This document shows, one piece after another, positions 7,205 to 43,243 of a stretch of DNA of 52,132 nucleotides. The position numbers and the translations under genes are program-made. Positions within the stretch are counted from its first letter, which is position 1, and each line of letters starts with the position of its first letter. Source of the DNA: Microcaldota archaeon (GTDB lineage: Archaea > Micrarchaeota > Micrarchaeia > Micrarchaeales > Micrarchaeaceae); NCBI GenBank assembly GCA_027339055.1, contig DAHWRK010000003.1, positions 1 to 52,132 on the forward strand, read 5' to 3'. The notes beneath the pieces are model-generated. The model saw only the letters and a program-made list of their open reading frames with translations, was not told where the DNA came from and ran no database searches.

Positions 7205-7208
7205 TTAA

Positions 7209-8246: not shown

Positions 8247-8248
8247 TT

Positions 8249-8881
8249 TTAGGCACCGGCGTTTATCAGGCTCATGGCCTCGTCAAGGCGCTGCTGCCTC
8301 AACGCCCATAACGACTGTTCAGTCTGGTTAAGCGTCATCTTCCTTTTCCTTAGGTCCTTGGACGACTTTTCTATATGGGCGGACAGGCCGTATATTTCCT
8401 GCATCACTACCTCCTTGTGGTTTTCGTCGAAAACCTGCTCTTTCAGCCCTTCGATTATGCGCTCGAGCTCCGATATCTGATCGGCTATGGAAAGCTTAGG
8501 CAGGACCAAATCTTTCTCGTTGAACTTGACTTTTATCTTTGGCTGTGGCTTGGACTCTGGGACTTCGAAGCTCTGTTGCTCTGCGGTCGGTACTGCCGAC
8601 GCCTTGCCAGACTGCTCGACCCCGGAAGCTATCAGCTGCGATTCCTTGGGCATGGTCTTCTGCGACCTTATGCGCTGGCCCCCGCGGCCGCTTTCTATTG
8701 AGTCTATCCTGCTTAGCAGGTCTAGATATGTATGGGAATTGGAATTTTCATCCGTTTCAAACAACTTTGACACGTCTATGGACGACTGCTGGGGCTTCTG
8801 CGATGATGCTTCTATGCCTTTTATGTAGGCAACCGCCTGTTCGTATTCGCTTTTTGTGCTTATGCCGTTCTCATCCATCAA
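8249..8881 (-). CDS. Uncharacterised coiled-coil protein in the type IV secretion/pilus operon
   Basis: 210-aa ORF packed between ATPase and FlaJ-like genes; charged helical C-terminus; start overlaps the upstream stop. Confidence 0.65.
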   Translation of the reverse strand: MMDENGISTKSEYEQAVAYIKGIEASSQKPQQSSIDVSKLFETDENSNSHTYLDLLSRIDSIESGRGGQRIRSQKTMPKESQLIASGVEQSGKASAVPTAEQQSFEVPESKPQPKIKVKFNEKDLVLPKLSIADQISELERIIEGLKEQVFDENHKEVVMQEIYGLSAHIEKSSKDLRKRKMTLNQTEQSLWALRQQRLDEAMSLINAGA

Positions 8882-10512: not shown

Positions 10513-10522
10513 TCAGCACCAC

Positions 10523-16521: not shown

Positions 16522-19500
16522 TTATCCTGGGCGTTTGCCTGCTTGCCAGGTTCTAGAAAACCGCCTGCGCTTCGATGATATCTGGTAGGCGATGATTCCT
16601 GCTATTGCTACAAGTGTAAGCGCAATGCTTATGTCTCCCATGCTGAGGTAATAGCTGCCTACATTAAATGACTCCGAAGTCTGGTTTGGCGCTATCGAAT
16701 AATTGTATTCGTACGTAGCAATAGGGTTAGGAGGGATGCCAAAATATTGAGCACCTTCAGATTCGCATTTAGTTGCTGGATCATAATATTCACAGAATTT
16801 AATGAAAGATAGGTAATTGTTGTAATTTGGGGAAAAGCTCAGCACGGAGTTTGCGATTGATGGCTGCGTATATATCTGCGGCTCGGGGGCCGAGGCGCCG
16901 TAGTACTTCGCGATTATCTGTCCTGTTCCTGTGCCGCAGGCTGTTATCGTGTTAGTGGAGAAACCTCCGGTGCTGTTTGTGGTCACTATGGCCATTAGGC
17001 CGAGCTGTGAAGTTAGTATTCCAGTGCCATTCGTGAATTCCGGCTCGCAGTAGCGGTTGTATGGGACGGCTGCGATATTGCCGATGCCAGTATTTGCAGG
17101 CACCATTGAAGTATCGTTATTGATGCTGCAATCCACCGGAACCGTTATGTTGAGCAGGCTGTGCTTTGGAGGAGGAGGGCAAACCCCTGAACTGTTGTAT
17201 TGCGGATTGTAAGATATCGCGTTCGCCTCGACTGCGCCTGTGCTTCCTTGTATGTACTGGTTTAGAGGGCTTGCCATACTGCAGCTCGCAGAATAGTTGG
17301 CGTCATATGCACATTTTTCGGCATAGGTGTAGTAATCGGCAAGCTGGCTTGAAACTGCCGGACTTTCGGTTGAATTGTAATAGTTGAGCGGGTTGTCGTA
17401 ATACAGGTATATGTCCGAGCCTTTTGGAACAGGGGAAAACTTTTTCGAGTATATCCCGTAAACTTCGCCCGCAGTGCCTGTTATGTTCAGAAGTGTCTGA
17501 TTTGAATTATAGACATTGACTATCGGATTAACGTTAACGTTTATTATCGTAGTGTTGGCTATATCCACATCCATTGGCGCGTATATCGTGTTGTTGAAGG
17601 CGTCCTGAAGCACGTAGAGCAGCCTGTTATAGCCCAGTATGGGCCTGTCCTTGGGAAATGATATCGACATAAGGTCATAATACCTGAAGTATGTAAACTG
17701 CTGGAACAGATTGGTGAAGCTTGTCTCTGAATTGTTTATGTATGTGAATATGTTGTTGCCTGCAAAAACGGTTGGATTTGGTATAAGCGAGTTTGCAGCG
17801 CCATATACCGGGATGTTTGAAGGAGGGTTTACGCTAATGTTCGCTAGCTCGACTGTGGAGTAAGCGTAGCCCGGGTAGTTTTCTCCTCCTGCCGACTGTT
17901 GCACTTCGTATAGGCTGTAGTTGTACATGCGCGAGTAGTTTATTATTTTGGATACAGCCAAGCCTGACGAATTTATGCTCTGGTTTAGCATTATGGAGCC
18001 GAAAAGCCTGTTTGTAAATATGTTATACGCCGTGCTCGGCGGTATGATTGAGTTATTGTCGGAAATGTTAGCATTATAGAACGCGTTTGACAATATGTCC
18101 TTCAGATATGTGGGACCGCCTTCTACTACTGAATTGTATGAAGATTCTGTTACGTTTACCTGAAACGCGGAATAGCCGTTGTAGGTAAATGTACCGCTTT
18201 TCGGAAGAACATTGGTGCAGCCCGACGGATCCGTGCTTATCAGCTGCCATGATTTTGTTACAGTATAAGAGGTATTGTAGGGTATCAGGGCGTAGCCGCC
18301 TATGGAAGAAGTAAGCTTTATGAAGTTCGCTATTGAAGCAGGGGAAGACGTTATGCTTGCCCCTGTTGTTACGAGGCCTGAGCTAAGGCCTGTTCCTGAA
18401 CTGTTGCCGTTTATGTCATTTTCCTTGTTTGTTGCATAGCCGCTTCCGTAGCTGCTTATGCCGCCAGGCAAAAGCGACTCCGAAGCTGTCTGGGCATCGT
18501 AATAATCGTCAGCAGAGCCTTCGCCTAGCACGAATTTTAGAGGGCTCGGAGCGGCAGCGATAGGGGGATACATGCTTGATATGTAGTTGTTTTCCGTGCA
18601 TGGCGATGAGGTTGAAATGTTTATTAGGCATTGGTAAGGCGAATACGCGGAAAGCGATATCTTTGTATAGTTTACCACATGCGGCACGAACCTTAGCAAC
18701 TCAGTATACATAGTTTTACTGTAGAAGAAATTAAACGAGCTAAACTGGTCATGGGTAATCATGTAAACTGTGCCATTGTAGTCCATGTAGAACTCAGTTA
18801 AACCCGGGTTAAATAATGATTGTGTGGATGCCGTAAGATTAATGAACGGGCCTATTGGGTAGTATCCGTTGTAGTTTTTGTTGCTTGAGGGCCCATATTC
18901 GCATTCGGCAATGCAGTATGAGACATATTTGTTGTTTGGGAGCGATATGTTTGCGGACAGGGGCCACCCGTACGGAGGATTTGAAGCGGATGCCGATAGG
19001 TTGCCGCCTAGCAGCTGTATTAGCTGGGCTTGTGATGCGTTTAGCATCAAATCATTGTAATGCTGGCCGTCTATCGGGATTTCTGTGCCGTTGGGGAAGA
19101 ATACACGCAGCATAAGTATATTGGACTCCAAGCCGTTTGCCACAAAGACCCAATCATCAACCACATATAGCAAATCTCCAGAATCGAAAATTGCAATTGG
19201 ATGATGGTATGAGCTATAATCTATTGAATTTGAAGCGCCAGCATATGCAGCGGCAACCGTAGCGCTCCCGAAAGGACCCCCGTGCGCAAGGTACGATGTT
19301 ATATTTAGATTGTATGCGAGATTCGAATATGACAGGCTTATGTTCTGCTCGTATGTGAGCGAATTGGAAGAGAACATCGCTATATTTGGATATGATGCAT
19401 TTGACAAGTACAGGAACTGTCCGCCCGGAGTCGTGGCCAGATCTGTTGGAGCATTTGGAAAGCCGTAGTCGCTGGATTGTGAGGGTTTAGCTACTACGGC

Positions 19501-22500
19501 TGTGCCGTTGACGAAATACGAGGCAAGTTCCAAATTAGCCACAGTTTGGGATACGTAGTTGATAGTCTGAGTAGTTTCGTATAACCCAGCCAAAAATATG
19601 TCACCCGAATAGTCAGAGGTCATATATGTGGGTATAAATCCGTTTAGCTTTGACCCTGAGCCGCCGTTACATTCATTTGCAAAGTTTATGGCCCATTGGA
19701 AGCACAAGTTTGTGGTGCTGCTTGACATCTCTGTAATGTTCGTTATGTAGAATGTTTGGCTTTGCTCCGCAAGCGAATCTTTCCAGTAAGTTTTCCATGC
19801 AGAAACCCAAAGCGAATTTGTAGAGTAAGGCGAGTCCGCAGTAACAGAATTTACTGCGAAATTGGGCTGTATGTTGCTCAGATTGTAGTAGCCAAGCGGT
19901 ATCGACCTTATCGAAAAGAAAGACGTAGCAGTACTTGATGAAAATAAACCACTAGAAGAAGTGTGATTTATCAAATATACATAATCGTTTGGAGTCGCAT
20001 AAGCGAACGACGGGGAGTTTATCTGTCCGGACTTGAAAATCCCCACAGGGTTTTTTAGAAGCGAAGACAGGGGATTCGCGCTGCTGGTTTCTGGTCCCTG
20101 CTGTTTTGAGTTTAAGGCACTTACAAAATTGGAATTGGGGTCGTCGAACGCAGCATTTGAGGTAAACGACACCTCAGAATACGGGTATTCCACAAAATAG
20201 TCATTAAGGCCGGAAATATTCGACGCGAAAAACGAAGAGCCCACGTGAAGGCCGTAGGGCTCAAGGGCATTTGGATTCAGATAATTGTAGGGGCTGTACA
20301 TGTCATATGACTCATTAAGGTATCTTGCCCTTCCGTTCAAGTCGCTGACGGTAGCAGGTGCCGAGAAGTTGTAAAGCAGGTAGGGTATTGCAGCCACCTC
20401 GGAGAAATGGAGCTGCGAAGATGGTATCGCATAAGCCACGTAGTTGTACAAGCACCCCGGCGGGCTGTCGCAGCCGGCGAGAGGATCAAACCCTTCAAAG
20501 CTTGCTGTAGCGACAAGATAATCGTTTGCGTATTTGTTTACGCCGTGTACCATATCGTTGGCAGTGTATACGTAGGATGTGTGACCTTGGCAGCTGCCAA
20601 TAATGCAGCCAGAGCCTCCCGGCTGTATCGAATTGCCATAATAAAATGAAGCAGAGCTCGATACCAGATTAGGACTGGATGAGGAGCTAAAACTGCAGCT
20701 GCTCCCACCATATGCGCCCCCATCCCAAAACAGCCATTGGGCGCACCCGGTTCCAGCATGTTCGGTGCTAGAAGTTTCAGCAACCGAGCCATTAGGAAAT
20801 ACTATCCTCTGCGGCAATTTGTGCGGCAGGTTTACAGGTATGGGTATCTTCTGGTTGTTTATGCTTTTGAAGTCGACAGACTCGGAATAGGTGTAATTGT
20901 ACAAGCAGTTGTTGGAGTTGTTGTAGTATTGCAGGAATGGGAACGTGCTGCCCTGTTTGGGGAACTGCCTGTTGTTCTGAGAAAGGCTGGATATCTGGCT
21001 GCTCGTTAGCTTGCTGAAGTTCGCGAACTCTAGCGTCCACGTCCATACTCCCGATTGATTATTAGATTCGGGCTGGTTGAATATGTAAGACTCCGTATTG
21101 TATATATTTGATATGGCATAGGTCGAATTCATCATCCGGGTAGAACCTACATAGCCAAGATTTGAAACAGTGAGGATTCCTGGATCCGTAGCCGTCAACA
21201 CCGTTGTGGAGTTTGCTATCTGGTTTTTGCTCCATGTGACCGTGGTATTTATTGTAAGAGTAGTGCTAAGAGGGCTGGAATCTGCAAGGCACCTGTTCCC
21301 GGATATGAATTGCGGCGTGGAGGTATTGAAGTACTCAGCAGTGTAGACAGGATTCGGAGATATGGGGCACGTTATCAGCCATTGTGCGCTCTGCTGCTCG
21401 TAGCTAAGCTGATTTGCAGTTGTGGGCCGGCTTGAGGCAGTACCCTGGGACTGCGGCTGCAACGATCCCCCAAGAGCATCGGGATAAGGAGTTGTTATCG
21501 TAACCTTATTAAGGAAAACGCAGTGCCCGTCTTGTTCGGTATATTCGTTGCCTGGGCCTCCGCAGCCGCTCGGTGGAGGCACTGTAGGCAATGTGCCGTG
21601 TATGAATACGCCATTCCCTCCGTTGCCACCGTTGCCGTTGCCGCCGCTGGTGCCGGTGCCGCCATTTACATTTACTCCTGCGCTATTTATATTTATACCT
21701 GCCGCAGTCGTTATATTAACTACTCCTCCTCCTCCTCCTCCGGCCCCTGCTGGCGTGCCTCCGACACAAGAGCTTGCACCACCGGCATTGCCGCCCTGAG
21801 CGTATATGGTACCAGGTTTTATATAGTTAGGATTTCCTGTGGTTATTTCTATGTAAACAAATCCTCCGCCTCCGCCTCCTCCGGGCCAATTGTCTCCACC
21901 GCTGCCGCTGGAGCCCGCAACACTTATGACACCGTTGTTGATGAACTCGTTGGAAAATATATCTACAATGCCCCCTCCGCTACCGCCATCAGCGGCACAT
22001 GTTCCAAAGTTTGCGCCGCCGCCGCCGCCGCCGCCGTATTTTCCGCCATTTGATTGAGTAAAACCTGTGCTTCCGCCCGAACTGCTCCCTGCGCCTGCGC
22101 CACCTGCTCCGGATGTACCAGCGTTAGCAACGTGAATGCCGTTTCCTCCCGCTCCTCCTATGGCGCCATATGTAACTTTGCTCGTAGCTGCGCCATTATC
22201 CCCATTTCCAGAGTTACCGCAGGCAGAACCACTTCCGCATGAGCCGCCTCCGGCACCTCCTCCTGAGCCTATTATTATCCCATTATTTACTAATTCGGTA
22301 AGCGCATATATCGGATATCCGTTGGTGTCCAAAATAGCGTCTGCTTCCACATAAACATAATAGGCGCAGACTTGGTTTTGCAGTGTATCGACTGGGTTAA
22401 ACGCGTTTTTAGAGGGCTTGAAAGTGACAGTGCTTACAGGATTTGAACAAGATAGAGAAGGAGGAGACATTACTGCCTGGCTTAAATTTGCGGCGGATTT

Positions 22501-22644
22501 AGTTGCGTTTGCAGCATTTTGTGCAGTGCCTTGAGAATACGATATCTGCATTAAAAAAATTAACATTAGGATGGCTAAAACCATATGTATACGTACGGCA
22601 TTTTTTGTGCTTTTATCCATCACATGCACTTTTGCTCTTTTCAA
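16522..22644 (-). CDS. Giant secreted/surface protein with Gly-rich N-terminal region and C-terminal TM anchor
   Basis: 2040 aa; N-terminal signal-like helix, Gly-rich tract (KYGGGGGGGANFGTCAADGGSGGG...), many NxS/T sequons, C-terminal DISIALTLVAIAGIIAYQISSKRRR. Confidence 0.85.
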   Translation of the reverse strand: MKRAKVHVMDKSTKNAVRIHMVLAILMLIFLMQISYSQGTAQNAANATKSAANLSQAVMSPPSLSCSNPVSTVTFKPSKNAFNPVDTLQNQVCAYYVYVEADAILDTNGYPIYALTELVNNGIIIGSGGGAGGGSCGSGSACGNSGNGDNGAATSKVTYGAIGGAGGNGIHVANAGTSGAGGAGAGSSSGGSTGFTQSNGGKYGGGGGGGANFGTCAADGGSGGGIVDIFSNEFINNGVISVAGSSGSGGDNWPGGGGGGGFVYIEITTGNPNYIKPGTIYAQGGNAGGASSCVGGTPAGAGGGGGGVVNITTAAGININSAGVNVNGGTGTSGGNGNGGNGGNGVFIHGTLPTVPPPSGCGGPGNEYTEQDGHCVFLNKVTITTPYPDALGGSLQPQSQGTASSRPTTANQLSYEQQSAQWLITCPISPNPVYTAEYFNTSTPQFISGNRCLADSSPLSTTLTINTTVTWSKNQIANSTTVLTATDPGILTVSNLGYVGSTRMMNSTYAISNIYNTESYIFNQPESNNQSGVWTWTLEFANFSKLTSSQISSLSQNNRQFPKQGSTFPFLQYYNNSNNCLYNYTYSESVDFKSINNQKIPIPVNLPHKLPQRIVFPNGSVAETSSTEHAGTGCAQWLFWDGGAYGGSSCSFSSSSSPNLVSSSASFYYGNSIQPGGSGCIIGSCQGHTSYVYTANDMVHGVNKYANDYLVATASFEGFDPLAGCDSPPGCLYNYVAYAIPSSQLHFSEVAAIPYLLYNFSAPATVSDLNGRARYLNESYDMYSPYNYLNPNALEPYGLHVGSSFFASNISGLNDYFVEYPYSEVSFTSNAAFDDPNSNFVSALNSKQQGPETSSANPLSSLLKNPVGIFKSGQINSPSFAYATPNDYVYLINHTSSSGLFSSSTATSFFSIRSIPLGYYNLSNIQPNFAVNSVTADSPYSTNSLWVSAWKTYWKDSLAEQSQTFYITNITEMSSSTTNLCFQWAINFANECNGGSGSKLNGFIPTYMTSDYSGDIFLAGLYETTQTINYVSQTVANLELASYFVNGTAVVAKPSQSSDYGFPNAPTDLATTPGGQFLYLSNASYPNIAMFSSNSLTYEQNISLSYSNLAYNLNITSYLAHGGPFGSATVAAAYAGASNSIDYSSYHHPIAIFDSGDLLYVVDDWVFVANGLESNILMLRVFFPNGTEIPIDGQHYNDLMLNASQAQLIQLLGGNLSASASNPPYGWPLSANISLPNNKYVSYCIAECEYGPSSNKNYNGYYPIGPFINLTASTQSLFNPGLTEFYMDYNGTVYMITHDQFSSFNFFYSKTMYTELLRFVPHVVNYTKISLSAYSPYQCLINISTSSPCTENNYISSMYPPIAAAPSPLKFVLGEGSADDYYDAQTASESLLPGGISSYGSGYATNKENDINGNSSGTGLSSGLVTTGASITSSPASIANFIKLTSSIGGYALIPYNTSYTVTKSWQLISTDPSGCTNVLPKSGTFTYNGYSAFQVNVTESSYNSVVEGGPTYLKDILSNAFYNANISDNNSIIPPSTAYNIFTNRLFGSIMLNQSINSSGLAVSKIINYSRMYNYSLYEVQQSAGGENYPGYAYSTVELANISVNPPSNIPVYGAANSLIPNPTVFAGNNIFTYINNSETSFTNLFQQFTYFRYYDLMSISFPKDRPILGYNRLLYVLQDAFNNTIYAPMDVDIANTTIINVNVNPIVNVYNSNQTLLNITGTAGEVYGIYSKKFSPVPKGSDIYLYYDNPLNYYNSTESPAVSSQLADYYTYAEKCAYDANYSASCSMASPLNQYIQGSTGAVEANAISYNPQYNSSGVCPPPPKHSLLNITVPVDCSINNDTSMVPANTGIGNIAAVPYNRYCEPEFTNGTGILTSQLGLMAIVTTNSTGGFSTNTITACGTGTGQIIAKYYGASAPEPQIYTQPSIANSVLSFSPNYNNYLSFIKFCEYYDPATKCESEGAQYFGIPPNPIATYEYNYSIAPNQTSESFNVGSYYLSMGDISIALTLVAIAGIIAYQISSKRRRFSRTWQAGKRPG
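22015..22035. repeat. (GCC)7 trinucleotide repeat coding poly-Gly in the giant surface protein
   Basis: gccgccgccgccgccgccgcc read directly; encodes GGGGGGG on the minus strand. Confidence 0.95.
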
Positions 22645-24711: not shown

Positions 24712-25029
24712 CTATTTTTCTGTCCTTATAAATGAAACTGCATATGGAGAGGAATAAGTCTGGACAAGAAGGCCGCTGGATTCTCTCGTCATCTTTATCC
24801 CGTCAATTGAAGCGCTTCCGGCAAGATCCGCATACAATACGGAAGAATTGGCATGCGTTTCTGCCACGATACTGCTTGAATATGCGAACGCTTCGATATA
24901 GGCAATGTTTTCATATGCTTTCGTGTTGTTTAACGCTGAGCCCTGCGAATGCATTATCGCAACCGCATGCGTTACCAGCATGGCTATTACCACAGAGGTG
25001 GCAAGCACACCAAGGCCAAAAAGCGACAT
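24712..25029 (-). CDS. Small pilin-like membrane protein, end of pilus locus 2
   Basis: 105 aa; N-terminal hydrophobic helix; abuts the next gene on the same strand. Confidence 0.6.
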   Translation of the reverse strand: MSLFGLGVLATSVVIAMLVTHAVAIMHSQGSALNNTKAYENIAYIEAFAYSSSIVAETHANSSVLYADLAGSASIDGIKMTRESSGLLVQTYSSPYAVSFIRTEK

Positions 25030-25413
25030 TCAACCACACATTTTGACGCACATAAAGCCCGTCCCATTGTCTTCTACGGCTATGCAATAGTTTTTTACGT
25101 AGTTGCAATTGGATACTTGGCCAATGGCGGTATGATGCTCGCCTACGCTTATGCTCAAGCCGCGTAGACCGTAAACCCGCATAGTGTCGTTTATTGTAGC
25201 TTCGCATAAAGAAGAATAAGTTCCCGAATCAATGCAGGCATGCATTGACTGGTTGTTCTCGTATACGAAAACCATGCTGAATAACGCCGGGCCAAGCTGG
25301 CTGGGAAATTGGGATGGCTCCTCGGATGCCGGAATGAATACCGAATATGCTGCTGAGAAAAGCAGCACCATGCAAATCACAGATTCCAGAATTGCGAGCT
25401 GTGCCTTCATCAA
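25030..25413 (-). CDS. Type IV pilin-like protein
   Basis: MMKAQLAILESVICMVLLFSAAYSVF: short leader, Q and E near the start of the helix; overlaps the upstream gene. Confidence 0.6.
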   Translation of the reverse strand: MMKAQLAILESVICMVLLFSAAYSVFIPASEEPSQFPSQLGPALFSMVFVYENNQSMHACIDSGTYSSLCEATINDTMRVYGLRGLSISVGEHHTAIGQVSNCNYVKNYCIAVEDNGTGFMCVKMCG

Positions 25414-26735
25414 CTCACCCTTATTTCAGAGCCCGCGTAGCCGTATTCCGACTGCTTTCCGGTATAGTTGTATATGTCTGCTGAAACGTTGTAGAATTGC
25501 ATTGGGGAATCAGGCCTGCAGGAATATGCTATGCCGGCTGTGCTTATCGAAGCTTTGCAAGAACTGGAATCGGCAGGCGCAAGCGTTCCTATCAGCTTTG
25601 AAAGGGAGTTGTTGTAAGAGTATATCTCCCTTTCTATGGTTCCCGTGGCCCCGTTGCCGGAATTGTTGTAGTACGCCAGGTCATCCTTTACGCCAGAGTA
25701 GGCGTATTCGTAAGCGGAGTAGTTCGCAGCGCTCCCCACATAAGCTTTGCCGATAGAACTGAAAATGCGTATGGAATCTGGCTGTATCGATTGGGCGTAG
25801 ATTGAATTGCCGGGAGAAACGGTTCCGAAGACCTTTGTGTTTAGGGTAATGTTGGAATATTGAGAATTCGGGGTTAGTTTTGAAGTCAGATTGAGGTTAT
25901 TGTACCCTATCCCAAAATCAATGTTGTAGTTGTATTTCGGGACTGAAGAAAGCGCACTGGCATTGTACCCTGAATAAGTTTTGTATACGCAGTAGGTCTT
26001 TGTAGGCACCTGTGCGCTCCCATAATAACAGTTTGCGGAGAATGCCCAGAAGTACCATGATGCCCCGGGGCATTGCGATTGTATCGGCATCTGCTGACCC
26101 CAGAAGTTGAGCTCGCTGCAGTGGGAGCGTTCGGTTATGTAATAAAGTTTTGACTGTTTTCCGGTTGTGTATGTGATCGATTCGTTTTCCGGATGCAGAT
26201 ATACGTAGCTTACCCCATTGCCGGATCGATTGCCCTGCGATTGGCTTTGTTTGTTTTGGTAAGCGTAAAGCGTGACATTGGCGCTATATTCGGATTTTCT
26301 GCTTCCATTTATGGCGGTTATTTCAAGCGATACTGTACCTGCTCCGGTTGACACCGGGGCAGCATAGAAGACGAATGCCGCCTGCCTTTCATAGCCATTG
26401 CTGCTGAAATTCTTTCGGCTCAGGCTTATTGTAGCGCTGCTTATATTCGCAGATATTGCCGAAGGCATAGAAGTAGACACCAGCAGAGTTGCCATTGAAG
26501 CGTTTCCAACCTGCAGCGCCGGAGCAAGAAGATATGCGCTTATAGTATCGTTGATTGCAGCCATCGATTCATTCGGGCCCGTAGGGCTTGGATTTTTTGC
26601 ATTCAATGCACCCATCATTACGGAGTGCACGCGGGAATAGTAGGATACGCCGACTACACCCATGCTCGCTACTGCTGCCATTATAATTATGAACTCTATT
26701 GAGCTCTGCAGCTTTATACTGCGCAATTCATTCAT
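25410..26735 (-). CDS. Large pilin-like surface protein
   Basis: 441 aa; N-terminus MNELRSIKLQSSIEFIIIMAAVASMGVVGVSYY resembles class III pilin QSSIEF; large extracellular domain. Confidence 0.75.
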   Translation of the reverse strand: MNELRSIKLQSSIEFIIIMAAVASMGVVGVSYYSRVHSVMMGALNAKNPSPTGPNESMAAINDTISAYLLAPALQVGNASMATLLVSTSMPSAISANISSATISLSRKNFSSNGYERQAAFVFYAAPVSTGAGTVSLEITAINGSRKSEYSANVTLYAYQNKQSQSQGNRSGNGVSYVYLHPENESITYTTGKQSKLYYITERSHCSELNFWGQQMPIQSQCPGASWYFWAFSANCYYGSAQVPTKTYCVYKTYSGYNASALSSVPKYNYNIDFGIGYNNLNLTSKLTPNSQYSNITLNTKVFGTVSPGNSIYAQSIQPDSIRIFSSIGKAYVGSAANYSAYEYAYSGVKDDLAYYNNSGNGATGTIEREIYSYNNSLSKLIGTLAPADSSSCKASISTAGIAYSCRPDSPMQFYNVSADIYNYTGKQSEYGYAGSEIRVS

Positions 26736-27087
26736 TTTGATACACCCTAATTAAGTAGATCCTTCCAGAATACGCGGCTATGCCGCAGACGTATCCTTCA
26801 TTCGCAGTGTAATTTAAGCTGCAGGTCTGGTTTTCCGGGCCATAGCTTGATAAGCGCGTAATTTTAATCGAGTTGCCCACTTGCAGAACGGGATAATCGT
26901 TGCCTGTTGCCATAGCGTATGCAATTTGCTGCATTTCATAGTATGCGGAAAGCTTTTCCATTGCCAGCTTTGAATTAATAGCAGATGAGCGGTAATGATT
27001 GGCTAAAAGCCCGGTTACCAGCAGAACCGAAGTTAACAGTATTGAGATCGCGACAATCTGCTCCAAACCCAGAAACAATGCTTTCAT
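26728..27087 (-). CDS. Pilin-like minor protein
   Basis: Start ATG at 27087 overlaps the upstream TGA (ATGA); MKALFLGLEQIVAISILLTSVLLVTGLLANHY. Confidence 0.65.
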   Translation of the reverse strand: MKALFLGLEQIVAISILLTSVLLVTGLLANHYRSSAINSKLAMEKLSAYYEMQQIAYAMATGNDYPVLQVGNSIKITRLSSYGPENQTCSLNYTANEGYVCGIAAYSGRIYLIRVYQNE

Positions 27088-27293
27088 TGCCATTCTACCC
27101 ATATGCCGTAGTAATCCGAGGCCTGCACCGGCTGGCTTATGGTGTTCCTCATTGCAAGAGACGATGCCGAAATCTCGGAATTTATGCCTGAAAAGACCAA
27201 TGATGCATATGCCGATATGCCAATTAAAATTGTAAGAACCGAGACTGCCAGCGCAAGCGATATTATAAACATGGGGGTTATTTGGCCCATCAT
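27084..27293 (-). CDS. Small pilin-like protein (about 69 aa)
   Basis: Start ATG at 27293 overlaps the upstream TGA; MMGQITPMFIISLALAVSVLTILIGISAYAS. Confidence 0.6.
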   Translation of the reverse strand: MMGQITPMFIISLALAVSVLTILIGISAYASLVFSGINSEISASSLAMRNTISQPVQASDYYGIWVEWQ

Positions 27294-27667
27294 GGCGAAC
27301 CACGTATCAGGTATAAATCCGTTCCAGAGTACGATTCGCTTATGTTTTCCACAGAGCCGGAGTATTCGCATATTGATGGGCTAAGCTTTATTCCTGCGCC
27401 GTAGTACACGCTGTAATTTCCACACGTTACGGTTTCGGATCCGGAGCACGAGCACACCGATTTTGGCACGTATGCCGCAAATGAGGAGCTGCCGTATTGC
27501 TGCATTGCGCTTATATGGCCGAAGAAAGACTCAATCTCGTACTTGGATATTCCGCTGGCGTAGCCCGATCTAATCCCTGCAGTGGCATAGATGGCCGTCG
27601 CAAGGGCAGAAATGCCAACAGCCAGGTATATCAGTAATTCGAGAGTGATTTGCGCTTTTGTCTCCAT
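27290..27667 (-). CDS. Type IV pilin-like protein
   Basis: METKAQITLELLIYLAVGISALATAIYA: short leader, Q+1 and E+5, then hydrophobic helix. Confidence 0.7.
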   Translation of the reverse strand: METKAQITLELLIYLAVGISALATAIYATAGIRSGYASGISKYEIESFFGHISAMQQYGSSSFAAYVPKSVCSCSGSETVTCGNYSVYYGAGIKLSPSICEYSGSVENISESYSGTDLYLIRGSP

Positions 27668-27676
27668 TTAGAACAC

Positions 27677-27916
27677 CTACCCCTGAGTGGTTATATTTCC
27701 AAGCTCTGACTTCAGCGTCGATATTACGCTGCCATTGGTACCGTTGAAGAACGAGTGCACTGCGGCGCCCTTTAGCTGCGTTATCATAGCCAGGGCTATT
27801 ATGATAACTATACTTACTGCCGACAGCATCATCAGATATTCTATCGAGCTCTGCCCTTTTCTTGAGCCCGCCATTGCCATCATTGCACGAACCAGTGCGG
27901 AATATTGTGTTTCCAT
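27677..27916 (-). CDS. Type IV pilin with class III signal peptide (candidate major pilin)
   Basis: 79 aa; ...GSRKGQSSIEYLMMLSAVSIVIIIALAM: canonical KG^QSSIEY motif. Confidence 0.85.
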   Translation of the reverse strand: METQYSALVRAMMAMAGSRKGQSSIEYLMMLSAVSIVIIIALAMITQLKGAAVHSFFNGTNGSVISTLKSELGNITTQG

Positions 27917-27925
27917 TTTATCACC

Positions 27926-28735
27926 TCAAAGCATGAAAGCCGACAGGCGTAGGGCCGCCTGCATTATAAATGATGCGATGGCGCTCATCTGAAGAGTGCG
28001 CATGAAAATGCCGTCGTGCGGCCTAAGAGAATTTGATGATGTCGAGTAGTTTACTGCCATTATATAATACATGAACATCGCAATCAGCGCTAGCGAATAG
28101 CTTTGGTACCCGGCCGGGCTAGAGAACCTTATGATGTTTATCGTTATCCCGGCAAATACCGGAAAGAAAAAGTTTATACCGCTTGAAACCATCATGTCGC
28201 TGCTTTCTGACATCCGTGTCATTTTTGCAATATGCCCCATCAAAGCCGAGCATTTTGCGAGAACCCATCTTGAAGCCCCGGTTAGTCCCGTGCCCCCGGA
28301 AAAACCTGAGTATAGCACTATGCCCAGAATGCTTAGGCTCGGATCTTTTCCCGAAACCATTTTGCCGAATGCAAATTCAGCATTTCCAGTAGCCCTGAAC
28401 TTTTTCATGGCTGATTTTACGCTATTTGAATGGCGAAACCCAGGAGGTATTGAATGCATGGCCTTGGAATAGCTGGTTCCTTTAGGGCTCTGAGAAATGG
28501 ATTGCAGAATTGAGATGGTCTCCGTTGGCGATGATTTCCATTTAGAATCCTGGCCGTCTTTTGACAATCGATGGAAAACTATCGCAGATAGAAAAATCGG
28601 CGCTGAGGTCCACACGGAATAAAATGAAACTGCAATAGAGGCCAGATACATTGCGGCAGCAGCCGCTGCGGCATGGCTGCCAAATGCACGCTTTGGCTTG
28701 GCGAATGCGCTTATAATTGTTTTATATGATTGCAT
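27926..28735 (-). CDS. FlaJ/TadC-like pilus assembly membrane protein
   Basis: 269 aa, multi-TM, SISQSPKGTSYSKAMHSIPPGF... F-domain-like; next to a paralogue and an ATPase. Confidence 0.65.
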   Translation of the reverse strand: MQSYKTIISAFAKPKRAFGSHAAAAAAAMYLASIAVSFYSVWTSAPIFLSAIVFHRLSKDGQDSKWKSSPTETISILQSISQSPKGTSYSKAMHSIPPGFRHSNSVKSAMKKFRATGNAEFAFGKMVSGKDPSLSILGIVLYSGFSGGTGLTGASRWVLAKCSALMGHIAKMTRMSESSDMMVSSGINFFFPVFAGITINIIRFSSPAGYQSYSLALIAMFMYYIMAVNYSTSSNSLRPHDGIFMRTLQMSAIASFIMQAALRLSAFML

Positions 28736-29468
28736 TGCTCACCACCGAAGTAGCTTTTGAAGCTATCAGATAGGCAATTGGCGCGGAAACCACGAATATG
28801 GCGAATGCCTCTGGCAGGAACGATGCGCTTCCTGAAAGGATAGAGTACCCTGCGATTCCGAAGAGCGCAAATGAGGGCAGCACTGTTGAAAAAAGCATAA
28901 GCACCGTGGAATTTCTGTTATTCCCGTTGTTATGCGCGGATAACGCAGTTTCAAGATTAGATATTGCAGAATCCATTATTGCGGACAACGTGCTTATAGC
29001 GTCTGCGCCTGAACTGGATTTTTCTACAATATGTTTGATTATGGGTGTGCGCCCGTAATCTTTGTTTGGCGATTTTGCATCGATATGGCTGATTGCTTCG
29101 CCGAAACCCACCAGGCGCATTGCCAACGGCAGATTTCCCAATGCGAGAGAAACGTCATTCGATGGATAGCTGAAAATTTTTATGGAATCGGAAAACGCTT
29201 TTGCTGCTGGTGTCCCATTCATGCGCTTGAGCATTATGGATGAAGCCAGTCCGAAAAAAGAAAACCAGTTCCTTGTTTTTGACACGGCCTTCTGGATTTC
29301 TAGTTTCGCCATGTAGTATGCAAAAAACATTGACGAAGAGAGTATAGCTATGGGATAACCGTAGCTTCCGAAAAGCATAATTGCGACTGCGGGCATTATG
29401 GCAATATACCCTATGCACATCAGGTATAAGCCGAATCCAGCAAATTTTTTATTTTCGGGCGAATTCAT
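28722..29468 (-). CDS. FlaJ/TadB-like pilus assembly membrane protein
   Basis: 248 aa, multi-TM; LALGNLPLAMRLVGFGEAISHIDAKSPNKDYGRTPIIKHIVEKSSSGADAISTLSAIMDSAI; overlaps neighbours. Confidence 0.65.
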   Translation of the reverse strand: MNSPENKKFAGFGLYLMCIGYIAIMPAVAIMLFGSYGYPIAILSSSMFFAYYMAKLEIQKAVSKTRNWFSFFGLASSIMLKRMNGTPAAKAFSDSIKIFSYPSNDVSLALGNLPLAMRLVGFGEAISHIDAKSPNKDYGRTPIIKHIVEKSSSGADAISTLSAIMDSAISNLETALSAHNNGNNRNSTVLMLFSTVLPSFALFGIAGYSILSGSASFLPEAFAIFVVSAPIAYLIASKATSVVSNAII

Positions 29469-30991
29469 TCGAATCCCTTATATTCCAGGATAAATTTTTG
29501 AAAATCGCTGGAGCCGCTTGAAATGAAAGAGCATATCGCTTTGGACCTTGATTGGAATTCCTTCATCGCTTCGCTCGGAGACATTTTCATGCGCATCGCG
29601 AAGTAGGTTATTGCCTTGGAATATCTGAGCTCTTCCCTCTTTGGCACCCCGTTGGAAAACATGCTGTTTATCTCGAATTCGTCTGCCCTTTCCGGGCTTA
29701 TCTCTGCACGCGAAAACCATTTGTATTCTGATATTCCAGTTATCTTCCTCTGCATTGCGCCGTCAAGGGACATGTGGATGGCAAGATCTAGGTTTGAAAC
29801 TAGCGCATGGTCAACAAGCATTGGCCTGGATTCCAGCCTTGATATTACGCTTATGCCGCTGCCCGATACGTGCATCGTAGCTATAAAAGGCACCCCGGTA
29901 TTTGAACCGAAAAATGCATCCCTGGCCTCTGCGCCCCTTATCTCCCCTATTATGAGCCTGTCTGGCCTGAGCCTTAGCGCGTTTGATACCTGGTCCGATA
30001 TCGTGCTTTCGGATTTGTCAGCCGATTTCTTTCCTATCAGGTAAACGGCATTGGTGAAGTTCGAATGCATTATGAGCTCGTCGGTCTCCTCTTCAATAGC
30101 CACTACGCGTTCGTAGCGCGGCATCAGCTCTGCCATGGCCTTTAGCAGTGTGGTTTTTCCGGAGGCCGGCGGACCGGTTATAAGGAGATTGAGCCTTGCA
30201 TCTACTGCCATCCACAGATATGCCAGAAGCTCTGAATTAAGGGTGCCTTTTGCGAGCAGGAATGCCGGCCCGCTGCGCTCTGGCTTTGCGAGCCTTATGG
30301 ATGCCACCATGCCCGATGGCGAGTATGGCGACTGCTGGGCGTGTATCCTGAGCCCGGAAAGCGTGCTTGCGTCGACTATTGGGGTATCTGAAGCCAGTTC
30401 CTTGTCCGCAGAATCGAGAAGCTTATTTATGCAGTGTATGGAATCACGCTCCGAAGCGAATTTGATGTTTGTGGTGCAGAACCCGTATTTGGAGTGATAG
30501 AGAGATATGGGATATACGGGGCCGTTTATAACTATTTCTTCTATGTTTGCCGAATCCTCAAGCAGAAAGCTCAGCGGGCCGTATCCGAACAGGTCCAGTG
30601 CGGCGGCTTTCACCGCTATCGAGTTTTGGGAAACACCGAAACGTTCTGAAAGAAGAGACGCTGCGGAGTCTATTGCGCTTTTTTCGCCTATGCTGTATTG
30701 CGTGTTGGCTGCTTCTATCACAAGGTCAACCATATGCGATTTCATTGCGTCGGCGAGGGGCTTGGCTGAAATCCATTCCGGATGCGCTTTTATTGAATAT
30801 AGCAGCGACGAGCCAGATTTTCCCACCAGAGCGTTGGCAGTCTCAAGCAGCACCTCCGCGGGATAGCTTTCAAGAAAATCGAACGATAGCTTATGGCTTG
30901 GCGCGATAGGGATGGCAGCGCGCCTCCTCGGCGCGAATCTTTGGGGCGAAGCCATTGCAATTTTCGACTTGATTATTTTACTAAACTCCAT
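29465..30991 (-). CDS. Type II/IV secretion ATPase (FlaI/TadA-like), second paralogue
   Basis: 508 aa; Walker A GPPASGKTT; RLRPDRLIIGEIRGAEARDAFFGSNTGVPFIATMHVSG. Confidence 0.9.
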   Translation of the reverse strand: MEFSKIIKSKIAMASPQRFAPRRRAAIPIAPSHKLSFDFLESYPAEVLLETANALVGKSGSSLLYSIKAHPEWISAKPLADAMKSHMVDLVIEAANTQYSIGEKSAIDSAASLLSERFGVSQNSIAVKAAALDLFGYGPLSFLLEDSANIEEIVINGPVYPISLYHSKYGFCTTNIKFASERDSIHCINKLLDSADKELASDTPIVDASTLSGLRIHAQQSPYSPSGMVASIRLAKPERSGPAFLLAKGTLNSELLAYLWMAVDARLNLLITGPPASGKTTLLKAMAELMPRYERVVAIEEETDELIMHSNFTNAVYLIGKKSADKSESTISDQVSNALRLRPDRLIIGEIRGAEARDAFFGSNTGVPFIATMHVSGSGISVISRLESRPMLVDHALVSNLDLAIHMSLDGAMQRKITGISEYKWFSRAEISPERADEFEINSMFSNGVPKREELRYSKAITYFAMRMKMSPSEAMKEFQSRSKAICSFISSGSSDFQKFILEYKGFE

Positions 30992-31114
30992 AATAATATA
31001 TTAAAATAAATATTTATATACCTTTGTATAATTAATCCGGTTTGGCTGCTGCGCAAAACGGCGAATGTGGAAAAGAGTGCAAATGTATATAAACCTTTTA
31101 CAAAAAGTATTATT

Positions 31115-31435
31115 ATGGTAAAAAAAGAAAAGCAGCAGGATGAAATCTGGGCATTGAGGAAAGCGATAAGCAGGCCAAACTATGCAGTCATGGAGCTGCT
31201 TTTTGAAAAATCCCCAAGAACCACAAAGGAGATATATTCCGTGCTTGAGAAAAAGTTCACAAGGAAGACGCTCATAATATCGCTCAGGGAGCTCTCGCTT
31301 GACCTCAACGTGATACAGCCCACGCATATAAGGACAACGAACGGATACGGATTGGGCTACAAGCTCAACCCGAAGGTCAAGGACATGATAAAAAGCCTTC
31401 AGAAAGCTTCGAAGGTAGTTGAAAGCTGCATGTGA
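31115..31435 (+). CDS. Winged-helix DNA-binding protein
   Basis: 107 aa from ATG 31115; SRPNYAVMELLFEKSPRTTKEIYSVLEKKFTRKTLIISLRELSLDLNVIQPTHIR; divergent from the pilus locus 2 ATPase. Confidence 0.65.
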   Translation: MVKKEKQQDEIWALRKAISRPNYAVMELLFEKSPRTTKEIYSVLEKKFTRKTLIISLRELSLDLNVIQPTHIRTTNGYGLGYKLNPKVKDMIKSLQKASKVVESCM

Positions 31436-33233: not shown

Positions 33234-36227
33234 TCAGCAATCCGGGCTCTTCAGCCACGAGCATCCGGAATTAACCGAGCAGTAAGTCGCACCTGAATCA
33301 ATATTGGATGAATTTGATTCTGACGTCCCTGCGCAAAGAGCGCCGGATACGGATCCGTTGAACGAATCTCCGGAGAAAACGTTGGATGTAGAATTAGCCA
33401 TAGAAAGGCCTATGCCAGGAGATTTGGCAATGTCGCCCTTGAAGAGCGTATCCATCGTGTTGCTTACGTAGTACCCTATCTGACTCGAAGTCGAGTTGCT
33501 GCCTGAAACGGTTCCGGATGCGGAGTTTTCTATCAAAATGCCCGTGGTGCCGCTTATTACCGAGACATTCGAAATCGCAAATCCCTTCGATGAGTATACC
33601 CCTATGCCGAAATACTGAAAAGGTGTGCTCGCATTAGTGACGTTCATGTATATCCTGTCGTTTATGACCTTTACGCTCGAGTTCTTTATTATTATCGGCG
33701 TGGTGAATCCGCGCAGCATGCAGTTTTCTATGACTCCGCCTTTAACGTTGTCAAATTCCGCAAACGTGCCTCCGTGTGTAGCGGTTATGGTATTGTAGTT
33801 GCAGTTTATGGTGGTAGAATTTGAATACACCCCGTTGCACAGTGTGCCCAGGCCGTAATAGCCGTCAGCCCCAATGTCGTATGAAGACGGGCTGAAGAAG
33901 GAATTGCACGCTATCGGCCCGGAACTCTTGCTTATGCCCGAAAGCCACATGCAGTTGGATATTTTCTCGCCGTAGTTTATGCCGCCGTACTCGGAAGAAA
34001 TCCCTGAAGCTCCGCCAGCACATGAATAATCGTAATTTGAAGAGCCCGAGAACATGTTGTAAGAGATTGTATTGTTGGTCGAATTCGTGTTCGTGTATAT
34101 TCCTGTCCCGTCGCTGGTGCCGTTGTTGCCAGAGATTTCATTGAGGCTGGCGTTGTAAAGGTATATCCCATATGTGCCTGAATTAAATGACGAACCGGAT
34201 ATAATGTCATATCTGGATGAGTTCATGAAAAGGCCGGAGGCGCCGACGCTGCTTTCGCTGATGTTCTCGACCTTTGTCCCATTCGTGGCTTTCATGTAAA
34301 CCCCGAAAGTATTCCCTGTAGAGATGGCATTCGATATTGAAGAGTTTGTTATGTTGTCAAAGTAATACCCATATTTGAAACCAGTGGTCCCGCAGCCGCT
34401 TATCGTTACGTTTTTCACGTTGCTGGCCGATATGCCAGTTCCTAGCCCGCGAGACTGGCTGGATAGTTTATACGTGCCGCAGGACAGCCTTACATTGCTC
34501 GACTTTATCGTTATGCAGTTCGTAGAAGATGAGAGTATGTTCTGGCTCAGCGAATAATTGCCCTCAAAGCTTATCGTGCCGCAGGAATTTATCGGATAAA
34601 ATTTAAGCTGTGGTTTTGCCACGTTGGTACACGTTGTCCATTCGGCATCGGTAAGGCCGCACCGGGTATCGGACATTAGCGAGTAGCCCGATTTTATTGA
34701 ATTGTTTGTTGCATAAAGATCCATCCTCGAATTGTTTGCAGCCACACCGTTGTTGTAGACGTTGCCTATTGAGCCGTTCACGTATATTCCGTAGCTGTTT
34801 CCGGCAAACCTGAAGGAGTCGAAAGTATCCAGCGTTGAAAAGCCAACGTACAGCCCAATCCTGCCGTTGTCTGCACTTACGTTGTAGAACCTGCTCGAGT
34901 TGGAATCGGCAAGCATTATGCCAGTGCTCGTGTTTGTTATGCTTATGTTTAACAGTTCAGCATTGCTGTCGTTCTTGAGCATTATGCCGCCCTTTGACGA
35001 GCTTATTCCGCAATAGTCAATCTTCAAGCCCGGCTCTGAGCTCGCGTATATTGCATATCCAGAAGTGACATTGGTTATATTGTTGCTTTCGCAGTCGAGA
35101 TGCACTTCAGGCGCATTTATAGTTATGCACGGGACCTCTGCAGACGCGTTGATAAAGCCCACCGCTTTGGAGTATGCGTTGGCGTTTATGCCTTCGGCAA
35201 TGTGATAGTTGCCCGGGGAGTTTATCGTGCCGCAGGAATTTATAATGCTGCCCAAAGATATCTGTGAAACATTTATTGGATAGTTGGTTTCGGTGCACGA
35301 CAAAAAGTCGCACCCCAGGTTGACTGCGCAAGCGTTGCCGTGTGCCGAGCTGGCGTTTATAAGGCCGGAAAGCCCATGGCATGCCAATGAATCCGGCGTT
35401 GAATTTATTGTATTGTTATAGAAATTTTCGCCGCTTGAGTATACGTTTATGCCCAAGTTGCCGTTTGATAATATGGTGTTGTTTGACACCTTGTCCCTCG
35501 CAGATCCATAGCCCAAATATACGGCGCCCTGCGGGCTTGAGGTTCCAGAAACTTTATTTCCGGATACGGAAGAGGACGAAGTGTTCGAAAAGTAAACGCC
35601 CGACATGGTATTGTTGTATATCTTATTTCCTGCAACCCTGAAGCCTGTAGAATTCACAGCCGCTATGCCGTATGAGAAATCGGAAAGCGTGCATCCGCTT
35701 ACAGTAACGTTGTCCTTGCCAGAAGCGTATATCGCATACGTGTACGGGGTCTTGTTGCTGAAGGGCCCTGCGCCAGTTATGGATTTGCCGTTGCAGATTA
35801 TTGCAACGTTGCTAGAATTTACGTAAAGGCATGAACCCGAAGTTATGCTGCTGTTTATGTCCGAACCCAAATAATATGATCCGGGCTTGCCCAATGCTCC
35901 GCATGCAGACATCGTATACACGTCAGGGCTTATTGAAGTGGTAAGCACTGTAGTGGTTGGCGATGACTTGTGGAGAGTTATAACTGCAATTAATGCTATG
36001 AATATTATGACTATTGCAATAAGCAGGTATTTCAATGGAAATTTCTGCGCCTGGGGCTTTTTTGCCAATGGAACGGGAGATATGGGCTTCTGTTGCTCGA
36101 ATGGATTGCTTGGAGTAACATCGACTTTGTATCCTTTGGGCGCCCCCCCTGAAACCTCGCTCCAGCCGCCAGATGTGCCTGGGTTCACCGGTCCTTCTGA
36201 TCCTTGATCGTTCTGAAGTATTGACAC
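33234..36227 (-). CDS. Membrane-anchored surface protein with parallel beta-helix (PbH1/NosD-like) repeats
   Basis: 997 aa; TM helix after a Pro-rich cytoplasmic N-terminus; repeated short Asn/Gly/Ser units (NNTMSGVYFSNTSSSSVSGNKVSG...) and repeated SCGTI..GNY..CITI..V.L.C modules. Confidence 0.8.
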   Translation of the reverse strand: MSILQNDQGSEGPVNPGTSGGWSEVSGGAPKGYKVDVTPSNPFEQQKPISPVPLAKKPQAQKFPLKYLLIAIVIIFIALIAVITLHKSSPTTTVLTTSISPDVYTMSACGALGKPGSYYLGSDINSSITSGSCLYVNSSNVAIICNGKSITGAGPFSNKTPYTYAIYASGKDNVTVSGCTLSDFSYGIAAVNSTGFRVAGNKIYNNTMSGVYFSNTSSSSVSGNKVSGTSSPQGAVYLGYGSARDKVSNNTILSNGNLGINVYSSGENFYNNTINSTPDSLACHGLSGLINASSAHGNACAVNLGCDFLSCTETNYPINVSQISLGSIINSCGTINSPGNYHIAEGINANAYSKAVGFINASAEVPCITINAPEVHLDCESNNITNVTSGYAIYASSEPGLKIDYCGISSSKGGIMLKNDSNAELLNISITNTSTGIMLADSNSSRFYNVSADNGRIGLYVGFSTLDTFDSFRFAGNSYGIYVNGSIGNVYNNGVAANNSRMDLYATNNSIKSGYSLMSDTRCGLTDAEWTTCTNVAKPQLKFYPINSCGTISFEGNYSLSQNILSSSTNCITIKSSNVRLSCGTYKLSSQSRGLGTGISASNVKNVTISGCGTTGFKYGYYFDNITNSSISNAISTGNTFGVYMKATNGTKVENISESSVGASGLFMNSSRYDIISGSSFNSGTYGIYLYNASLNEISGNNGTSDGTGIYTNTNSTNNTISYNMFSGSSNYDYSCAGGASGISSEYGGINYGEKISNCMWLSGISKSSGPIACNSFFSPSSYDIGADGYYGLGTLCNGVYSNSTTINCNYNTITATHGGTFAEFDNVKGGVIENCMLRGFTTPIIIKNSSVKVINDRIYMNVTNASTPFQYFGIGVYSSKGFAISNVSVISGTTGILIENSASGTVSGSNSTSSQIGYYVSNTMDTLFKGDIAKSPGIGLSMANSTSNVFSGDSFNGSVSGALCAGTSESNSSNIDSGATYCSVNSGCSWLKSPDC

Positions 36228-36314
36228 TTACTCTACCGTTAGCGCATTCGCCACTTTCAGATTTGTTTATAAATGAATTTATAGTTTGTTGTTTGAATTA
36301 TAAAAGCGTTTAGA

Positions 36315-36411
36315 GCCTCGGTAGCTCAGCATGGTAGAGCACCTGTCTCGTATGCCCGGTATCTTGGGCTGTGAAAACAGGGGGTCGAGGGTTCAAATCC
36401 CTCTCGAGGCT
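36315..36411 (+). tRNA. tRNA-Thr(CGU) with 23-nt canonical 37/38 intron (36353..36375)
   Basis: Body near-identical to tRNA-Thr(GGU); CCTGT-CTCGTA-[TGCCCGGTATCTTGGGCTGTGAA]-A-ACAGG; intron hairpin GCCC/GGGC and AA^A / TA^T bulges. Confidence 0.93.
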
Positions 36412-36432
36412 TGTTTGGATGTCTTATTACCA

Positions 36433-42712: not shown

Positions 42713-43243
42713 GTGCGTGTGTTTATGGAACCTGCAAACGCTATGGAAAACGGCAGAGGAACCAAAGGCCAAAGCGCAATGGAATACCTCATAACATACG
42801 GCTGGGCCATACTCATAATTGCAATTGCTCTCGGAGTGCTATTCGAGCTTGGCCTTTTCAACCCAAGCTCATTCGTCAGCACCAGCTGCATATTCCCTGC
42901 AGATTTCAGCTGCATATTCAGCACGCTCAGCACCAGCGGGATGCTTACAATAAACATGCAGCAGTCAACCAGTGCGCCGATAAATATTACCGCAATAGGC
43001 TGCAATTCGAACGATTCGCTCAGCCACATGATTTATTTTCCCAACGGAATAGATGTGCAGATAGGGTCCAACGTTACAATAACGGGAAACAGCACGACAA
43101 CACTGCAGTGCTGGACCGGCAATACGGTGTTCGCCGGCAAGCCCGGGGCGCTTTTCAGAGGATATGTAATTATAAACTACACAGACATACAGACAGGATT
43201 TCCGCATACCATATCAGGAACCGTACTGGAAAAAGTTACCTGA
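42713..43243 (+). CDS. Orphan archaeal type IV pilin with class III signal peptide
   Basis: GTKGQSAMEYLITYGWAILIIAIALGVLFELGLF: canonical G^QSAMEYL motif; start GTG 42713 or ATG 42725. Confidence 0.88.
   Translation: MRVFMEPANAMENGRGTKGQSAMEYLITYGWAILIIAIALGVLFELGLFNPSSFVSTSCIFPADFSCIFSTLSTSGMLTINMQQSTSAPINITAIGCNSNDSLSHMIYFPNGIDVQIGSNVTITGNSTTTLQCWTGNTVFAGKPGALFRGYVIINYTDIQTGFPHTISGTVLEKVT

Follow-up and report, generated by a model that had tools for sequence, protein, structure and literature searches.

A conserved ten-gene operon of Micrarchaeota as a candidate locus for a thin type IV pilus of Epd/Tad-like layout

The window analyzed here is a stretch of 52,132 nucleotides of contig DAHWRK010000003.1 (assembly GCA_027339055.1) from a member of the Micrarchaeaceae, and it contains ten minus-strand genes, running from position 30991 down to 24712, that we interpret as the operon of a type IV pilus. 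It opens with a 508-aa assembly ATPase of the VirB11/T2SSE family (29465–30991), followed by two platform proteins with a single T2SSF domain each, TadC1 (248 aa, 28722–29468) and TadC2 (269 aa, 27926–28735), and by a 79-aa major prepilin (27677–27916). Beyond these lie six proteins named here by their length in residues: p125 (27290–27667), p69 (27084–27293), p119 (26728–27087), p441 (25410–26735), p127 (25030–25413), and p105 (24712–25029). All ten open reading frames (ORFs) were recovered with the positions and lengths first assigned to them, and the initial annotation's description of a minus-strand operon with an ATPase, two TadC-like proteins, a 79-aa pilin, and six small proteins is confirmed throughout. 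It had also described mostly ATGA-type overlaps. The majority of junctions do overlap, but fewer are of that type than implied: the ATPase/TadC1, p125/p69, and p69/p119 pairs overlap by exactly 4 bp, two further pairs overlap by 14 and 8 bp, one pair abuts, and two pairs are separated by 9 bp; the overlap of p441/p127 is 4 bp with the TTG start of p127 and 1 bp with the probable ATG start at 25410 that is favored by comparison with relatives.

The identity of the motor is established by several lines of evidence. The ATPase matches Pfam T2SSE (7.1e-22), its closest relative in the PDB is 2oap (1.3e-42), followed by FlaI and CpaF, and its catalytic motifs are intact (Walker A GPPASGKTT, Walker B DRLIIGEIRG, His box ATMHVSG). 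For the platform proteins, T2SSF matches were obtained among the homologues of TadC1 (8/35, best 6.5e-7) and of TadC2 (6/33, best 5.3e-6), and profile comparison with hhalign connects TadC1 to a T2SSF protein of a second pilus locus in the window (locus 1) at 97% and to TadC2 likewise at 97%. Together with the class III prepilins bearing Glu5 that are described below and an A24 prepilin peptidase in relatives, this ATPase and the T2SSF platform provide hallmarks of the type IV filament superfamily. The peptidase is encoded outside the locus as a single copy in 51 of the 60 genomes compared; in relatives it is about 290–300 aa long, with about 6–8 transmembrane segments predicted by hydropathy.

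The major prepilin carries the class III motif KG^QSSIEYLMML, cleavage at which is predicted to release a mature form of 58 aa, in line with the initial estimate of about 60. Of its homologues, 33 of 38 match the Pfam class III signal model and 6 of 38 match Flp_Fap (both at E up to 0.1); a sequence search of the PDB with the pilin returned no match. The AlphaFold model consists of two helices (3–59 and 61–78) with no beta structure, at a mean predicted local distance difference test (pLDDT) of 76. At the helix break, the protein of the window bears the sequons N37-G-T and N40-G-S, and a sequon of the form N-x-[ST] near this point (mature position 34–42) is a feature of 37 of the 38 mature pilins, preserved despite shifts of residue and register. 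N-glycosylation of the pilin at this conserved sequon is plausible, because homologues of the STT3-type oligosaccharyltransferase are encoded in 37 of the 60 genomes, including that of the window.

The full-length pilin, as recognized by its profile, is present as one copy per genome and always within this locus; of the 41 genomes that encode this ATPase it occurs in 39, and of the 19 that do not, in none. The two ATPase-positive genomes that lack it are one in which the contig stops at the ATPase (G011) and one with a divergent orphan ATPase (G050). In two relatives of the same genus, the mature pilin is identical at 58 of 58 positions even though the proportion of synonymous differences (pS) is 0.38 and 0.52, which points to purifying selection rather than recent transfer. 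Outside the genus, none of the other operon proteins aligned (nine in all, p69 excepted) is as well conserved: the mean identity of the pilin to the window is 48%, compared with 36% for the ATPase and 17–24% for the others.

Such constraint extends to the locus as a whole. We compared 39 loci, taken from genomes of the genus, the family, and the order to which the window belongs, and 32 of them preserve the gene order; the ATPase, TadC1, TadC2, pilin, and p125 are nearly always found together, and 32 of the 39 loci also carry p441, p127, and p105 in the same order, p69 and p119 being at times too divergent in relatives for their profiles. Every aligned gene shows a ratio of nonsynonymous to synonymous change (dN/dS) of 0.03–0.22 against the three nearest relatives wherever pS is unsaturated, indicative of purifying selection. 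The retained gene order, this selection, and the class III signal of the pilin homologues together argue that the locus is more than a chance assemblage.

The genes beyond the major pilin are organized in a manner that separates into two modules. The pattern Q1-x-[ST]-x-E5 of minor pilins is found in p125 (KA^QITLE), p441 (KL^QSSIE), and many homologues of p69, the copy of p69 in the window being one without Glu5. Four genomes (G010, G013, G037, and G039) carry the operon in two pieces: the break follows p125, and the second half (p69/p119-p441-p127-p105) is clustered elsewhere. Since the split falls after the fifth gene and the remainder still stays clustered, we read the ATPase, the two TadC proteins, the major pilin, and p125 as module A, providing the motor and the filament, and p69-p119-p441-p127-p105 as module B, forming a tip complex. 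In three of the four split genomes, p441 is shortened to about 325–332 aa, with much of residues 50–155 gone. The predicted structure of p441 (mean pLDDT 80) comprises a helix at 3–45, an Ig-like region, and a Cys-rich C-terminal region, and six Cys residues (206, 222, 236, 249, 393, and 406) are invariant in the family; the first Ig-like domain is accordingly read as a dispensable stalk and the six-Cys C-terminal region as a conserved head. The full-length family is almost restricted to this order. These features fit p441 as a candidate tip adhesin, and the earlier suggestion of such a role thus gains support from the pilin helix, the Ig-like domains, the invariant Cys residues, and the placement in a minor-pilin module. 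A more specific adhesin fold was considered and dropped: the fold search gives a match of the CARDB type (2kl6, TM-score 0.63 by target length), but the matches are only generic Ig/CARDB-like beta-sandwiches with low whole-chain scores.

The promoter region of the operon (30997–31030, minus strand) holds the element TATACAAAGGTATA at 31017–31030, which overlaps a TATA box, TATATAAATA, at 31011–31020. Eight members of the genus share the pattern [AT]TACAAA[AG][AG]TATATAAATAT... directly 5' of the start of the ATPase gene, where some 25 nt separate the TATA box from the ATG; by inference from this spacing, the transcript would be leaderless. Between the TATA box and the gene lies the window's copy of a palindrome, TWTACTNNAGTAWA (also given as TTTACTTAAGTAAA), that recurs at pilus promoters across the order; the window has only this copy, at 30997–31010 (minus strand), which is a degenerate form. 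Among the palindrome matches listed in relatives, 23 of 75 are situated immediately 5' of the pilus ATPase gene or of a winged-helix-like gene, for which uniform placement, ignoring the AT-richness of intergenic DNA, predicts 0.07. This enrichment is descriptive and not a test, because the palindrome was noticed in these promoters before the counting. The independent part of the evidence lies in the sites away from the intact operon: the palindrome stands at pilus promoters without a winged-helix gene (G056, G020, and module A of G013), upstream of the winged-helix gene in genomes without a pilus (G009, G012, G031, and G051), and before the relocated module B of G013. In the window, the winged-helix-like gene is transcribed divergently from the operon (31115–31435, plus strand) and encodes a candidate regulator of 106 aa, so classed by eye, which is 60–100% identical in most loci and has no credible Pfam match. 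The simplest reading is that this protein may bind the palindrome and control both its own gene and the two pilus modules, and the sites at the pilus promoters, the winged-helix gene, and module B form a candidate regulon. A role as a dedicated pilus regulator is weakened by the presence of the gene in 55 of the 60 genomes, pilus-negative ones included.

The same genomic site was also compared in seven pilus-negative genomes, and neither platform proteins nor the pilin were found there in any of them. In four, however, an open ORF matching the profile of the pilus ATPase (1.6e-16 to 5.3e-31) is retained at the site, with the Walker A, Walker B, and His box motifs destroyed (L125:938-1834, L126:832-2085, L127:1037-2206, and a 277-aa ORF on the minus strand of L123). 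We take these four ORFs to be relics descended from the pilus ATPase, kept in genomes that lost the rest of the operon. G012 and G031 have an unmatched ORF at this position, and G025 has none that is recognizable.

The best explanation of the locus, to which we assign a probability of roughly 0.78, is that the ten genes form the complete assembly operon of a thin type IV pilus in Micrarchaeota, Epd/Tad-like in kind and with a tip module and p441 as its adhesin. The analysis itself demonstrates the gene order, the homologies, the conservation, the modularity, and the shared promoter palindrome. From these we infer processing, polymerization, glycosylation, tip placement, adhesion, and host contact, which could proceed as follows. 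The ATPase, hexameric by family, would power a platform of the two single-domain TadC-like proteins, and the single A24 peptidase encoded elsewhere would cut the 79-aa prepilin after KG. The resulting 58-aa helical subunits would polymerize into a filament without a globular coat, probably N-glycosylated on its surface at the conserved sequon. The proteins of module B would act together as a complex of minor pilins, priming assembly and capping the tip, where p441 would display its Ig-like stalk and disulfide-rich head as a probable adhesin for a host or a surface.

Several observations weigh against this interpretation. A search of Pfam and NCBIfam with the TadC1 and TadC2 proteins of the window gave no T2SSF match of their own, for which reason the assignment was made through the homologue-wide scans and profile comparison given above. 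The A24 peptidase was not found in the genome of the window, an assembly of 549,526 bases that is 54% complete. The STT3 homologues include several weak matches and are missing from 23 genomes. Among the module B proteins, p119 (GLE) and p127 (KAQLAILE, Glu at +6, with a C-terminal CxxxC) carry the acidic residue one position late and are here classed as minor-pilin-like, and p105, which has an N-terminal hydrophobic helix (MSLFG), lacks both Glu5 and a clear cleavage site. The initial annotation spoke of several minor pilins and listed six proteins with hydrophobic N-terminal helices; of these, p125, p441, and many p69 homologues have the pilin pattern, p119 and p127 have it only in the shifted form, and p105 does not have it. 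Finally, none of the surface filaments of Micrarchaeum has been linked to genes of this operon, and cryo-electron tomography of Candidatus M. harzensis describes filaments between host and symbiont for which the host was suggested as the possible maker (PMC8975820).

Type IV filament machines also include secretion and competence systems (PMC10191384), and the short helical subunits could accordingly act as the piston of a pseudopilus that moves proteins or DNA, with no adhesive fiber. The absence of a globular head on the pilin and the several minor-pilin-like proteins, as in the type II secretion system and Com, would suit such a device, yet no gene for a secretion or DNA-uptake partner was detected in the operon with Pfam and NCBIfam, the pilin is hyperconserved along with its glycosylation sequon, and the large multidomain ectodomain of p441 is better suited to surface display; we consider this alternative unlikely. 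The ectodomain with its beta domains could also be displayed, with other class III proteins, by a bindosome-like or S-layer-associated assembly lacking a long filament, given that archaeal proteins with class III signals can be assembled on the surface. The bindosome ATPase BasE is indeed among the weak NCBIfam matches, but its score of 66 bits falls far under the curated cut-off of 1000, and the most conserved member of the operon is a short helical subunit that would be superfluous in a display complex, making this option improbable. A divergent archaellum, a filament for swimming, is suggested by the relationship of the ATPase to FlaI, whose NCBIfam profile it matches at 159 bits against a cut-off of 550. 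However, apart from the ATPase family, none of the ten proteins matches an archaellum component, there is no FlaH-like protein in the operon, grouping with FlaI is rejected by the approximately unbiased (AU) test (p 0.0185), and the micrarchaeon Mia14 is reported to lack archaellum genes (PMC5498576). Gene content has already largely refuted this idea, and we give it very little credence.

The type IV pilus favored here resembles several known systems without coinciding with any of them. The clade 1 (Epd-type) pili of Methanococci, Methanobacteria, and Thermococci likewise combine an ATPase, two TadC genes, a major pilin of about 70 aa, several minor pilins, and fast-evolving parts; however, their major pilins are typically stand-alone and often multicopy, in contrast to the single linked pilin of the Micrarchaeota locus, and they use a 9-transmembrane EppA peptidase, which the single A24 peptidase of Micrarchaeota does not match in its predicted number of segments (Makarova 2016, PMC4858521). 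With the bacterial Tad/Flp (type IVc) pili, the locus shares the order ATPase-platform-platform, one T2SSF domain per platform protein, and, as predicted from the genes, a minor-pilin tip, functional tips of this kind being borne by Tad pili (PMC12075869). The pilin is short and modeled as all-helical, as in Flp, but only 6 of the 38 homologues reach the Flp_Fap model at E up to 0.1. The locus also differs from Tad in that no secretin, TadZ/CpaE, RcpC, or TadE/F was found among the operon proteins with Pfam and NCBIfam. The initial comparison of the layout with Tad, Ups, and Aap pili thus stands for Tad, through the ATPase, the two single-domain platforms, and the Flp-like pilin, but nothing specific to Ups or Aap emerged, no references for these having been included.

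Closer at hand, locus 1 of the window (6194–11830) also encodes a T2SSE ATPase and two T2SSF platform proteins. As first noted, the present locus is short and divergent by comparison: its ATPase has 508 rather than 544 aa, at 33% identity, and its platform proteins have 248 and 269 aa against 345 and 336. No second copy of the 58-aa helical pilin was found near locus 1. A stand-alone pilin-like protein of 176 aa, TKGQSAMEYLITYGWAILIIAIALGVLF, of a type unlike the 79-aa pilin, is encoded at 42713–43243 (plus strand) and is possibly used by locus 1.

The ATPase tree, which sampled AfGspE, one haloarchaeal PilB, Sulfolobus FlaI, the locus 1 and other DPANN ATPases, and four CpaF proteins (one row of probable wrong frame, S1_L091, with an end branch of 8.9, was left out of the final version), recovers the ATPases of this locus as a single order-specific clade (100/100) on a long stem, outside the archaeal group sampled. 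The four CpaF rows form a clade of their own (100/100) that likewise excludes them, and the locus 1 ATPase falls with the other DPANN ATPases, in a clade different from that of the present locus. Joining the present ATPases with AfGspE and PilB (p 0.017) or with locus 1 and the DPANN group (p 0.041) is rejected by the AU test, as for FlaI; these p values are indicative, because of the long branches and because the groups were named after the first tree had been seen. The label Epd/Tad-like is architectural and makes no claim of membership, because the tree holds no clade 1 sequence and clade 1 was compared through its published description. Most relatives also encode a third ATPase of the T2SSE family, about 442 aa long (G000:C35:11999-12856, L096), which forms its own clade (100/100).

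The existence of the system was already known, since Golyshina et al. 2017 (PMC5498576) report two type IV pilus loci in Mia14 (MIA14_0170-0177 and MIA14_0252-0260) and one FlaK-like peptidase, shared by many Micrarchaea. Our genome G015 is very probably Mia14, and its orthologous locus at 229–237 kb agrees with MIA14_0252-0260 to about six gene numbers when calibrated on the ATP synthase and on the peptidase MIA14_0570; one of the two loci so reported is therefore very probably this one. The tree does not group its ATPase with the euryarchaeal-type references sampled. Unrecognizable pilins in some DPANN pilus loci were noted by Makarova et al. 2019 (PMC6393860). The conservation of the subunit, the two-module build, the shared control site, and the ATPase relics appear to be new, no description of them having been found in openly searchable papers, a range that excludes preprints and most subscription journals.

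A bolder proposal, which we hold only tentatively and consider doubtful as a whole, is that the locus represents a distinct order-specific family of type IV filaments outside both the known archaeal clades and Tad, with bare helices of 58 residues that are under very strong constraint and N-glycosylated at the helix break, a transplantable five-gene tip module bearing a disulfide-rich host adhesin, palindrome control shared with the winged-helix gene, and a Walker-dead descendant of the ATPase kept where the pilus is lost. If so, the retained relic would imply a second, non-motor role for this protein. More generally, pili are a usual suspect in the attachment of DPANN archaea to their hosts, without named genes, and for Micrarchaeota the locus supplies a concrete set of genes open to testing, which includes a candidate adhesin besides the major pilin and a tip module. 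The window belongs to the kin of Candidatus Micrarchaeum, tiny host-associated archaea, and its closest named relative, Candidatus Micrarchaeum sp. A_DKE (Ca. M. harzensis A_DKE), which is already in co-culture, carries the locus with an ATPase 92% identical. Bacterial Tad has been proposed to derive from archaeal clade 1 (Epd) (PMC10191384), and a filament of naked 58-aa helices from an archaeal lineage also bears on that origin.

The operon is flanked on one side by a small divergent gene and a gene for an ATP-dependent DNA ligase and on the other by a GalT/HIT-family gene, a tRNA-Thr, and an rRNA adenine dimethylase gene. Beside the ligase gene, a 997-aa protein (33234–36227, minus strand) with an N-terminal hydrophobic segment and NosD/Beta_helix repeats is a possible surface beta-helix protein. 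At 36314–36412 (plus strand), ARAGORN predicts a tRNA whose type is left undetermined and whose anticodon has four bases (atgc); this may be a tRNA with an intron or a spurious prediction. A secreted-looking protein of 2040 aa (16522–22644, minus strand), without a Pfam match, combines a Gly-rich N-terminal part with a C-terminal hydrophobic segment.

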